This document shows, one piece after another, positions 18,922-64,000 of a stretch of DNA of 64,000 nucleotides. Below the pieces are notes generated by a model, which was not told where the DNA came from, made no database searches, and was given only the letters and a program-made list of their open reading frames with translations. Source of the DNA: Paratrimastix pyriformis (Eukaryota > Preaxostyla > Paratrimastigidae); assembly GCA_027972325.1 (NCBI GenBank), contig JAPMOS010000042.1:87501-151500 (forward strand), given 5' to 3'. A program made the translations under genes and the position numbers. Position 1 is the first letter of the stretch. Every line of letters starts with the position of its first letter.

Positions 18922-19592
18922 ATGGAAACCGGTGCCCCTCAGCAGCCAACGATTCAATTTGAAACATGGGCTGACGTTTCAAATGCTATTCAGAAGAGGT
19001 TTGTGATGCTGCGTATTTTTTTGATATAATTTTGCCCGGTCGCTCTAGCCGTATCCCATCGAGCGGCGTGCCTCGACTGGTCGTTGTCTGCTTCTGTACA
19101 CCCTGGAACCCAACCAGCAGGATGTCAGCTCGCTATTTTAAGGAGCTCTCTGAAGGTCCCGATGCCCGGTTTGCCAAGATCTCCATTGTCAATGCCGAGG
19201 CTGAACTCTCCGCATGCCATTCCATGACGTCTGCCCAAAAGGCTTACTTTTTATATAAAAATTACTTGGATCCCTCTCAGGATTCACGCCACTCCAGCCG
19301 TACAATTCTACTGGGATGGCCAACTCCTCACGATCAGACGTCCCGACTGGGACGACGACACGAAATGTCTGCGGCATTTTCCCCACGACTTCGTCTCATC
19401 ACATCGTCTCTCCGGGCGCATCCACAGTTGTCGGTTCGACCACCAAAGAAAATGTCTGCGTCCCTCCGCTCATCCACCTCGGGTCATCATCCCCCTTCCT
19501 TCCTCCTCCCTTCGGCTCAGTGGCTGGAGCTGATACGATACGCGCGCGATGCGGGGCTCAAGCACAACAGCATTCTGTATGTCCAGTTCTAG
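18922..19592 (+). CDS. Thioredoxin-fold protein, four exons
   Basis: Exons at about 18922-18998, 19049-19228, 19281-19392 and 19518-19592 join in frame to roughly 147 residues. The second exon gives the beta strand LVVVCFCTPWNPTS, which aligns with the thioredoxin active-site strand, but a CxxC pair is absent (CFCTPW). The third gives ATPAVQFYWDGQLL, matching the cis-proline (TP) and beta-3 segment. The C-terminal helix reads WLELIRYARDAGLKH. The missing redox pair argues for a non-catalytic thioredoxin-like role. Introns are 50, 52 and about 125 nt, with donors GTTTGT, GTCTGC and GTCTCA. It shares a short divergent promoter with the coiled-coil gene. The exact subfamily is not identified. 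Confidence 0.65.
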
Positions 19593-20312
19593 ACCATCCC
19601 CTCCCCTCCCCTCCCCTCCTCCCCCACCCCCATCAAGAGCCACTAACCCCGTCGTCGGGCTCTGGTCCCCCATGGGGATGTCGACATCCGGACAGAGGGG
19701 GGGATGTCGACAGGGGGATGTCGGCACCCGAACCGGGGGATGCCGGCACCCGAACTGTCATCGAACCGGGGGGGATGTCAACATACCTGGCCGAACTGGG
19801 GGGATATCGACGGCGGGCCAAACGGGTCTCTTTTGCACGACAAGACCGCAGCAGCAGCTACGGCATGAACACCAGCAAAACGGCACATGAGCAAACCTGC
19901 AATCGCAAAAATCATCATCACCATCATCACCATCATCATCATCCAAGCATCATCACCATCATCGGCATCAGACACGAGGTGGTCCGGGGTGACCGGGGCG
20001 GGGCGGGGCGGGGCGGGGCGGGGAGAGGGCGAAATAACAAGAGGAAGACGGGGGGGGGGGGGGGGGAGAGAGAGAGAGAGAGAGAGAGAGAGAGAGAGAG
20101 AGAGAGAGAGAGGATGGACGTCTTATCGAGAAGGCGGAAAAAGGGAGGGGGAGGGGAGGGGAGGGGAGGGGATGAGGGGTGGGTGGCGCCCACAGCCTCC
20201 TCCTCCTCCCTCCTCCTCCCCCCCAGGAATCAACGGGGGGGCGCGGGACATGAAATAATGATGGCGGAACATGGGGTGTGGGGTGTGGAGTGTGGGCGGC
20301 CTCCGCGGGGCC
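19593..20312. other. Intergenic, repeat-rich
   Basis: No gene is seen. It contains GGGGGATGTCGACA-type degenerate repeats (19680-19805), a short CAT block (19912-19970), GGGGC repeats (19995-20025), a poly-G run, a (GA)n dinucleotide array of about 50 bp at 20066-20114 and GGGGAGG repeats near 20145-20170. Confidence 0.6.
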
Positions 20313-21594
20313 TCACCGGTTGAGGGTGGGTGAGGGCAGCAGGGGCTTCCGGGTGGCGGGTGGGGACCCTGCCGCGGGCCCCGCGCTGCCGGGCGGGGTG
20401 GGCAGGGGCGAGGGCAGTATGGGTGCCGTCCGGCCGCTAGTGCCCCGGGTTGGGGTGCTGCTGGCTGGCGGGGCAGGCAGCTCGGTGTGCTGGGCGAGGG
20501 GAGAGGATGGCGTGTGGGGGGGAGGAGAGTGCCGGGGGGATGGAGTCAACCCCGGGGGGGAGGGTGTGGGAGACGAGGGCGAGGCGGAGGGCGTCGCGAC
20601 CCCCGACGAGCTGCCGAAGATCTTCCGCCGCTGCACGTCAAGCTGCACCCCCGGGGCGATTGCGACACATCGATATATATGAGGTGGGACAAAGTGAAAA
20701 AAAAAAACAAAGCAGACCATCTTTTGCACTTGGTTGAGTGCAGTGCGCTTGCCGCCCTCTTTCAGCAAACATGAGCTCCGATCGTATGGCTCGGTGATGA
20801 CAACGCCATTGACAACGATGTTCTTGCCCTCCCACCTACAGTCGGGAAGCCTGTGGGAACAACCGGGAAAATCGTAAAGTGGCGAAGAAGAAGAGACAGA
20901 CATATTGCAGAAAGCATCAAAGAGCTGCTGAGTCTCAGCGGAGACCCCGACGCCAATGCGGGCATGCTTCTCGAGGGCAGCTGCCACAGCCATCGCTGCT
21001 CGCTGCTCGAGAGCACCCTCATCGATAAGTTGTTTCGGCTCCAGCTGCCCGTTGACCTCGATTCGTTCGAGATCCTCTGGCGTTTGATAGGGAACACGGG
21101 GATCCTCAACCTTCACAAACTGGGTGATGAACTTCATCTTGCAAATGCGATATGTGCACGATGCTGATTCTGTCTTGTGTGCAGATCGGCGGTGCCCAGA
21201 AGGCTTCGATTCGGACTGTGCGGGAGGAAATAAGGAGTTAAGGAGGAAATACCCCTGCCATGGGGAGCGGGGGGAAACAAAAACAATGCAGAATGCTGGA
21301 ATCGATATCAATGGCAACAAAGCCCGAGTCCAGGTCGAAGGTAAAGACCCGACCCGTGAAAGGGCTCTCGTCCATCAGCTGAACTCGAACCTTTGCACCG
21401 ATCCAATTCAGGCACTGTTCCGGGGTCGAGGGAAGCTCGGGAATGGGTGAAGGCGAGGCCGTTTGTAGGGACAGAGAGGGAGGAAGAGGAAAAGAGCGTG
21501 CGGGTATCACCCAACAAGGGAGGCTATTCCCATCATTTGATTGTTTGTGCCGAGACTCACCACGCGCGAAAGTCGGGATGATTTGCTCCTGCAT
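20313..21594 (-). CDS. LSM12: LSM12-like RNA-binding protein (LSm domain plus anticodon-binding domain)
   Basis: LSM12 family proteins pair an N-terminal LSm fold with a C-terminal AD domain and take part in RNA metabolism; in animals they bind ataxin-2. The likely start is at 21594 (MQEQIIPTFARG). The LSm part reads IGAKVRVQLMDESPFTGRVF and FDLDSGFVAIDI near 21300-21420. After an intron, KMKFITQFVKVEDPRVPYQT leads into the AD domain: RIGVGVSAETQQLFDAF, then WEGKNIVVNGVVITEPY, matching the AD core VSxExQxLF...W..KNIVV...V.I..PY. An intron with donor GTCTGC (about 20717) and acceptor GTGCAG splits the end of the AD domain. A Pro/Ser/Thr-rich low-complexity tail not typical of animal LSM12 runs to the TGA at 20313. 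The next gene upstream ends only 82 bp from the start. Confidence 0.85.
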
Positions 21595-62720: not shown

Positions 62721-63375
62721 GTGGGCTCGTCCACGAAACCTGCAGGGAGGGGAGAGGTCTCAGGTCGTCGTCTCAGGTCGTCGCTCTGTCCAGTCCTCCT
62801 CTTCCTCTTGTCTCGCTCCCGTGACGCCGAGGTTGGGGCGTACGCCGACCTTGCGGGATGACGTTGGCCGGGACCTTGGCTCAGCTGGACCCCCGGCCGT
62901 GTGTGTGATCACTCCGGAGATGCCCTGGAGTTGATGGGTGGGTGAGGGATGGGATAAAACCTTTTGAGATTCTCCTCTTGTATATTCAGTTAACACGAGA
63001 AAGAAAGAATACCGAGACAGTTCGGCAGTGCCCTTTGGTCAAAACCACCCTTCTGCCGGAAAACATGGAAATGTGTTGACAGGTCGAAAGGCTGCGGGAT
63101 GCTTGGTGATGATCAGATAGCCACTCGTGCACTCGTGCGGTATGCCCAGCTATGGGGGATGGTCGAACAGGAACCGCTTGCCGATTGAAATCAGTTTTAA
63201 TGACGGCTCTTTCGAGAGCGTCACTCGCTATTCTTCACTGAAATCTGAACCAACGGCAGCGTCGCGTTCTTGCCTTCGTTCGCTTTTCCGAATCAGAAAC
63301 AGCCCGTCGCGATCATCGCTATCACCACGGTTAGCGCGACTACTCTCGCTCGTTTTCTTTTTTGAGGAGGTTTCG
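62721..63375. other. Spacer upstream of the WD40 gene
   Basis: No supported gene. A direct duplication CAGGTCGTCGTCTCAGGTCGT lies near 62760. The segment from 62960 on is AT-richer and may hold the promoter and 5' leader of the WD40 gene; an alternative start for that gene lies at 63142. Confidence 0.4.
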
Positions 63376-64000
63376 ATGCAGAGGGAAATGAGCTCCGGCC
63401 TTGTTGTGGCCGGAGAGCTCCTCTCTCTACCACATCGTACTATATTATTTACCAAAGACCGCGAGAGTGTGCGCAGCATGTGCTGTGTAGAATCATTGCA
63501 CGAGTTGTGGGTTTCTTGCTTTGATGGAACAGTCAGAGTGTTCGGAACTGAGGTCTGGTTTTTCTTTGATTGATTCCTGCTCAAACTCTCGCAGAGTGGG
63601 GAGCTGCTGCGTCAAATCAGCTTCCCAGGTGATAATTTACGGTGCTTTCTCGATCTCCTTGCGGAGACGCACACAATTTGGGGTGGAAGTTCCAATGGTT
63701 ATCTTTTCGTCATGCACCCCTCTGGAGAGACTCTTTGGAAAATGTCTGTTTTCCCCGCGGGACCTAATCTGCTCACTGCCACCAACAAACCAGCGAGGCG
63801 CACCACGGCGGGATCAACGCCCTGTGCCGGGCCACAGGAGCATCTCCTGCCTTGGCGTGGTCGGCTTCCGACGACTGCCGGCTGTGCCTGTGGGATGGCG
63901 AGGGGCACTGTCTGATGACCGTGAACGCGCACAACCTTCGCGTCCGGGCGCTGTGCTCGCTGCAGGGCGTGCTTTGGTCGGGGGGTGACGACGGGCTCCT
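63376..64000 (+). CDS. WD40-repeat protein, 5' part (3' end outside window)
   Basis: The likely start at 63376 reads MQREMSSGLVVAGELLSLP; an in-frame ATG at 63142 is possible. Exons at about 63376-63552, 63600-63743 and 63793-64000 join across short introns with donors GTCTGG and GTCTGT. Blades in order: VRSMCCVESLHELWVSCFDG then TVRVFGTESGELL; LLAETHTIWGGSSNGYLFVM then HPSGETLWKI; EAHHGGINALCRATGAS then ALAWSASDDCRLCLWDGEGH; NAHNLRVRALCSLQGVLWSG then GDDGLL at the edge. The H-x-G-x-I-N-A-L and W-S-A-S-D-D-C-x-L-x-L-W signatures are standard WD40. What follows the propeller cannot be seen, so the subfamily is open. Confidence 0.75.

Follow-up and report, generated by a model that had tools for sequence, protein, structure and literature searches.

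Introns of the free-living anaerobic flagellate Paratrimastix pyriformis (Preaxostyla) mostly begin with GTC, typically GTC(T/C)G where GTAAGT-like donors are usual, and its U1 small nuclear RNA (snRNA) genes carry a changed 5' end that matches these donors (5' splice sites). The GTC donors were first noted in a 64,000-nucleotide stretch of contig JAPMOS010000042.1 (positions 87,501 to 151,500), here called the window; a preliminary description of it, made from the letters, reported GTC where GTA or GTG is usual and suggested a changed relationship between U1 and its site. The 5' end of U1 is among the most conserved RNA segments of eukaryotes. In this study, we show the donor consensus of 58 introns, a changed 5' end in eight U1 genes, a promoter element shared by the snRNA genes and an intact U6. 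Both sides of the contact between U1 and the donor have most probably switched together in P. pyriformis (we put the probability at about 0.92), giving a changed base-pairing code at the first splicing step. In the literature searched, which was mostly open-access, we recognised no description of such a donor or of such a U1. The main text of the published genome paper (PMC10703272) contains neither 'spliceosom' nor 'snRNA'.

Donor sites outside the window

The assembly searched comprises 56.06 Mb in 495 contigs. The published genome has 56.6 Mb, 60.94% G+C and 633 scaffolds, and its gene models come from Augustus trained on curated models with intron hints from RNA sequencing (PMC10703272; here and below, published work is cited from the accessible parts of each source). 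Intron positions come from spliced alignments with foreign proteins, the aligner preferring GT and AG and nothing else. The sample consists of eight genes, all outside the window, namely seven CCT genes and the larger part of Prp8. References for the CCT genes were PDB sequences and, for CCT-beta, the Paratrimastix eleionoma protein P0006; eight CCT genes were located and seven aligned, CCT-epsilon being left out. The CCT genes yielded 48 introns, of which 42 with GT..AG ends were kept and six dropped. Prp8 (reference residues 1-2008 of 2348, in 10 kb of contig) yielded 17, of which 16 are GT..AG, and each of these 16 junctions was reproduced exactly by one or both of two additional references. 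Together, 58 of 65 placed introns were kept.

The counts of A/C/G/T in these 58 introns are 23/14/13/8 at -3, 24/13/12/9 at -2 and 0/6/49/3 at -1 on the exon side, and 1/52/0/5 at +3, 1/26/3/28 at +4, 2/0/56/0 at +5 and 2/20/4/32 at +6 in the intron. The pentamers GTCCG (25) and GTCTG (24) account for 49 of the 58 donors. Prp8 alone has C at +3 in 15 of 16 introns and G at +5 in all 16. C at +3 is found in the majority of introns (52 of 58) rather than in a minority, which confirms the GTC donors first described for the window, and the alternative of GTAAG or GTGAG donors at shifted positions is not borne out (A at +3 in one intron, G in none). The introns have the GT..AG ends of the U2 type and a pyrimidine before the acceptor AG (C in 38, T in 19); the GURAG donor of that type is not what they use, as a purine stands at +3 in 1 of 58. 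At the CCT loci, C follows 331 of 916 sense-strand GTs as compared to 37 of 42 donors (binomial p = 4e-12). The CCT-beta gene (contig C113) is an exact match to residues 3-529 of the annotated P. pyriformis protein P0001 in eleven exon blocks. Aligned with the same GT/AG preference, this published model gave ten GT..AG introns, nine with GTC and one with GTT; nine of the ten junctions repeat ones of the CCT alignments, kept or dropped, which makes them a second reading and no new sample. Exon-end AG and T at +6 are partly mutually exclusive (n = 58, p = 0.003, one of seven tests). This resembles the two donor classes of PMC11732430, and we make no claim on it.

Raw counts were taken on both strands of 264 kb, made up of the window plus 20 pieces of contig C441. 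GTCTGT occurs 342 times, GTAAGT 6 times and GTGAGT 295 times, so that hexamer counts alone are indecisive. GTGAGT is over-represented as compared to the 169 copies expected from 5-mers, yet it is the donor of no placed intron. Tandem or low-complexity repeats, largely ATC-like, took up about 27% of the 264 kb, and the codon model used for a coding score was trained with these repeats masked. Behind coding-like sequence this score shows its clearest drop at GTCCG (-4.71, n = 100) and GTCTG (-3.09, n = 51), the change over all 1170 GT sites being -0.52; GTGAG stands in that position 13 times (mean -1.86) and GTAAG once. Tests of donor hexamers by in-frame stops gave weak and mixed support, with GTCTG and GTCCG prominent but not alone in this. 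The output of an ab initio gene finder, which had fused neighbouring genes, was discarded.

U1 genes and their predicted pairing with the donors

The Rfam model RF00003 matched eight U1 genes on eight contigs (model positions 1-166, E 3.7e-13 to 2e-10). At least eight genes are thus present, 41 of 992 first-look candidates having been scored. The eight genes begin with AUACAGACCUUG in place of AUACUUACCUGG: the conserved segment ACUUACC is replaced by ACAGACC, with AG for UU at positions 5-6 in all eight, and position 11 is U for the canonical G. The Sm-site region aligns in the model. Judged by homology, these are U1 genes with a changed, non-canonical reading segment. When the assembly was searched for the first 19 bases as a pattern, positions 5-6 left free and up to two mismatches allowed, the same eight genes were recovered at zero mismatch, all with AG, next to three two-mismatch sites versus nine in a reversed control. 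No canonical U1 copy was found by this 19-base pattern search.

The element CCCATAA lies at -59/-60 of all eight U1 genes and of both U2 genes read, at -53/-54 of the four U5 genes and at -66/-67 of the four U6 genes read. All 18 snRNA genes read have it upstream, at a distance of 53-67 bases; it is likely the proximal sequence element of this lineage, and a promoter of the snRNA type precedes each of the eight U1 genes. The U2 genes of P. pyriformis start with AUACCUUCUCGG, which is recognisable beside AUNNCUUCUCGG, the usual U2 start. Since the element is equally spaced in U1 and in these U2 genes with their recognisable start, it supports the 5' end of U1 as read. Transcription of U1 presumably begins at this base, and the genome probably holds no other U1.

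In the pairing register, A5 of U1 stands opposite +4 and G6 opposite +3, A7, C8 and C9 stand opposite +2, +1 and -1, and U10 and U11 opposite -2 and -3. AG at positions 5-6, found in all eight genes, complements +4U and +3C, which supports the changed U1-site relationship that had been suggested. Position +3 is C, or U able to wobble, and never G, as expected from selection by the G opposite. Over the 58 donors the mean duplex energy is -9.46 kcal/mol with the U1 of P. pyriformis versus -4.75 kcal/mol with canonical U1, and the former pairs better in 53 of them. By Watson-Crick pairs, AG is the best of the 16 dinucleotides at positions 5-6 (7.09), followed by GG (7.05). The same pairing would be expected in vivo.

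Of the two RNAs that the preliminary description had singled out for inspection, U1 is changed and U6 is not. U6 (RF00026) is present in four identical copies with a full match and intact ACAGAGA (96.7 bits, gathering score 44). The middle A of ACAGA faces donor position +4 (PMC10581693), so that ACAG of U6 can pair with CUGU at +3 to +6. The segment AUACAGA is common to U1 and U6 of P. pyriformis. U5 gave seven matches and U2 ten, one of them partial; among the copies read, GCCUUUUAC is present in the four of U5 and GUAGUA in the two of U2, the usual loop and branch-site segments. Among spliceosomal proteins, LUC7 matched on two contigs. The sole zf-U1 match (C86:24809-24916) was rejected as U1-C, being nearer to WBP4 (47.5 versus 31.3 bits), and this single profile gave no U1-C. 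The U1-70K N-terminal domain gave no match in a one-profile search in which the controls were silent as well; genes split by introns may be missed in such protein-domain searches. One METTL16-family match (C332:38824-39153) and one SNRNP27 match (C9:25886-25972) were observed. In Saccharomycotina, U at +4 is linked to METTL16 and SNRNP27K (PMC10581693); unlike there, both matches are present in P. pyriformis even though +4 is mostly a pyrimidine.

Introns and donor-like sites of the window

All 17 GTC donors of the preliminary description have the letters it gave (Table 1). Of its three exceptions, 18999 and 54063 are read correctly; the one placed at 28011 is one base off, its GT starting at 28010. 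At 54063 (GTGCGT) no GT..AG intron was recovered by alignment to foreign kinases with GT/AG favoured. The junctions had been presented as fixed by conserved protein on both sides; protein evidence backs six of the 17 GTC donors, five in a kinase gene and one in a CrcB gene, and 20717(-) only fits an exon end.

The kinase introns were placed by spliced alignment to four foreign kinases, GT/AG alone being favoured. With no splice-site preference set, three of the four give the donor at 54331, and three put the junction at 54540 four bases later. For the 54760 intron none of the four alignments ends on AG, the acceptor AG at 54944-54945 being taken from the letters; the kinase motif HRDLKPSNLL is restored on joining the exons. 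References P0124 and P0152 place the 56240 intron both with and without the preference. In the CrcB gene the unspliced match covers profile positions 1-63 with 22.7 bits, below the cut-off of 32.9, and removal of the intron extends it to 1-90 with 36.3 bits, above the cut-off; the unspliced frame meets stops. The anticodon-binding (AD) domain matches to profile position 89 of 90, one codon before 20717(-), which is consistent with a likely exon end and leaves the exact junction unfixed. RRM_1 matches over profile positions 1-69 of 70 in the open reading frame ending at the 32218 donor. At 38395(-), where the letters are GTCGTCTGC, GTCTGC at 38392 is equally good as a donor. Two transfer RNA genes lie at 12877-12949 and 13571-13644 (-).

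Table 1. Introns and donor-like sites of the window (positions of the window)
Feature	Positions	Strand	Donor	Acceptor	Evidence or remark
MAP-kinase-kinase-like gene, intron	54331..54414	+	GTCGGC	ACAG	2 of 4 foreign kinases
same gene, intron	54540..54602	+	GTCTGT	CCAG	2 of 4 foreign kinases
same gene, intron	54760..54945	+	GTCCCC	TCAG	donor by 4 of 4 foreign kinases
same gene, intron	55839..56114	+	GTCCGC	TCAG	1 of 4 foreign kinases
same gene, intron	56240..56483	+	GTCCGC	ACAG	3 of 4 foreign kinases
CrcB-family gene, intron	33560..33621	+	GTCTGC	CCAG	Pfam CrcB match
likely intron after AD domain	20643..20717	-	GTCTGC	GCAG	AD domain ends one codon before donor; acceptor from letters
donor-like site	18999..19004	+	GTTTGT		letters only; +3T, minor class among placed introns
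donor-like site	19229..19234	+	GTCTGC		letters only
donor-like site	31893..31898	+	GTCTGT		letters only
donor-like site	32218..32223	+	GTCTGA		letters; adjoins RRM domain end
donor-like site	32742..32747	+	GTCGGT		letters only
donor-like site	32942..32947	+	GTCCGC		letters only
donor-like site	38168..38173	-	GTCTGG		letters only
donor-like site	38387..38395	-	GTCGTCTGC		letters only
donor-like site	39981..39986	+	GTCTGG		letters only
donor-like site	63553..63558	+	GTCTGG		letters only
donor-like site	63744..63749	+	GTCTGT		letters only

Alternative explanations, history and significance

Several observations speak against a joint switch of U1 and donors. All eight U1 matches (50.8-60.2 bits) stay below the Rfam gathering score of 69.5, and a divergent U1 with a very different stem could escape the pattern and the model used. 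Because 26 of 58 donors have C at +4, GG would be the best choice by energy at U1 positions 5-6 (-11.94), with AG in second place; this C is unpaired with A5 and is the weakest part of the fit. No compensation for it by pairing elsewhere was found: donors with C at +4 have 2.48 other pairs versus 2.80, the reverse of what compensation would give (p = 0.85). At a guess, C at +4 and +6 stems from mutation toward G+C or from a tolerated A-C. Seven of the 65 introns were dropped for want of a GT..AG placement, with GTC at most three bases from the break in four of the seven, and GTGTG and GTTGG, too, were prominent by in-frame stops when the sequence was tested ab initio.

C at +3 might be driven by U6 and not by U1, as it pairs with the G of ACAGA, with U1 changing later or neutrally. 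The ACAG of the intact U6 does match CUGU at +3 to +6 in the register of PMC10581693, and the two readings overlap because a single donor is able to serve both RNAs. However, in the accessible account of that survey 240 yeast and outgroup species have ACAGA without a +3C rule, so that U6 alone leaves the shift unexplained, and the U1 change matches those very bases; we consider a shift driven by U6 improbable. Even less probable is that a canonical U1, missing from the assembly, does the work and that variants or pseudogenes are what the eight U1 genes represent. Their scores below the gathering threshold would fit this, and with a published BUSCO of 76.3% (PMC10703272) the assembly may lack parts, but eight near-identical copies on eight contigs all carry the snRNA promoter element, none is canonical, and their 5' end fits the donors.

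It is scarcely conceivable that GTC donors reflect the base composition of a G+C-rich genome instead of recognition. GTC is indeed common in the background given above, and C at +4 and +6 may in part follow composition; yet GTG is nearly as frequent there (306 of 916) and G at +3 occurs in no donor, +5 is almost always G, and the U1 change is left unexplained. We give equally little credence to donors misplaced by a few bases, with the true introns starting with ordinary GTRAG. Junctions do move without a splice-site preference, mostly by 0-9 bases, the dropped introns found no GT..AG placement and GTGAGT is not rare in the 264 kb. Against this, the aligner favoured GT and AG alone and still returned a single A and no G at +3, the Prp8 junctions are concordant between references, and so is the published CCT-beta model.

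According to the joint switch that we favour, the 5' end of U1 would have changed and the 5' splice sites would have become its complement, approximately (A)AG/GUC(U/C)G(U/C), the first slash marking the exon-intron border. The rule at +3 would have passed from A (or wobble G) opposite the U at position 6 of U1 to C (or wobble U) opposite G6. U1 would read the donor bases first and the unchanged U6 would read the same bases later, and the capped U1 RNA would start with AUACAGACC and not with AUACUUACC. Donors of the oxymonad Streblomastix have A, U and G at +3 to +5 (PMC1501061), which makes a GUAUG-like ancestor plausible. U1 and donors would have changed in step from this state; +4U would already have been there, the switch requiring A to C at +3 plus two U1 changes. 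There is, in our estimate, an even chance that the switch of the code is complete and that the 5' end of U1 is now a copy of the donor-reading segment of U6, both RNAs testing the same bases and the donors having moved genome-wide to suit both.

As compared to the canonical pairing of AUACUUACCUG with MAG/GURAGU, the RNA, the register and the place in splicing are the same, and -1G, +1G, +2U and +5G are retained. What differs in P. pyriformis is AG for UU at U1 positions 5-6 and U for G at position 11, and in the donors C for A/G at +3 and U/C for A at +4. The GUAUGU donors of yeast and oxymonads have +4U, +5G and the pairing of +4 to +6 with ACA of U6 in common with P. pyriformis, but carry A at +3 (Streblomastix, PMC1501061). 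Another natural U1 altered at its 5' end is known from the diplonemid S. specki, where one of two copies has a C stretch beside a canonical copy (PMC12621601); in P. pyriformis, unlike there, the change affects every one of the eight copies found, and the donors correspond to it. A base change in U1 likewise restores pairing to an altered donor in engineered compensatory mutants (Zhuang and Weiner 1986, via PMC11732430), whereas the case of P. pyriformis is natural and involves most sampled donors. Entamoeba histolytica, with GUUUGU donors, also has a pyrimidine at +3, but according to the accessible text no U1 RNA was found there, so that no matching change is known (PMC6018208, PMC13292270).

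Standard-donor gene finders should perform badly on the P. pyriformis genome. The organism offers a system for the order of change, whether U1 came first, the donors came first, or the change went via a GUAUG intermediate poorly paired with canonical U1. Moreover, it helps to separate the demands of U1 at +3 and +4 from those of U6, METTL16 and SNRNP27K. Compensation of this kind was sought in a survey of which the accessible text reports ACUUACC as invariant in all 236 genomes, 227 of Saccharomycotina and 9 of outgroups, that yielded a U1 candidate, even where donors had switched to U at +4 (PMC10581693). A lineage whose U1 genes changed together with most of its donors, as is probable for P. 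pyriformis, would demonstrate that nature is able to rewrite this code.

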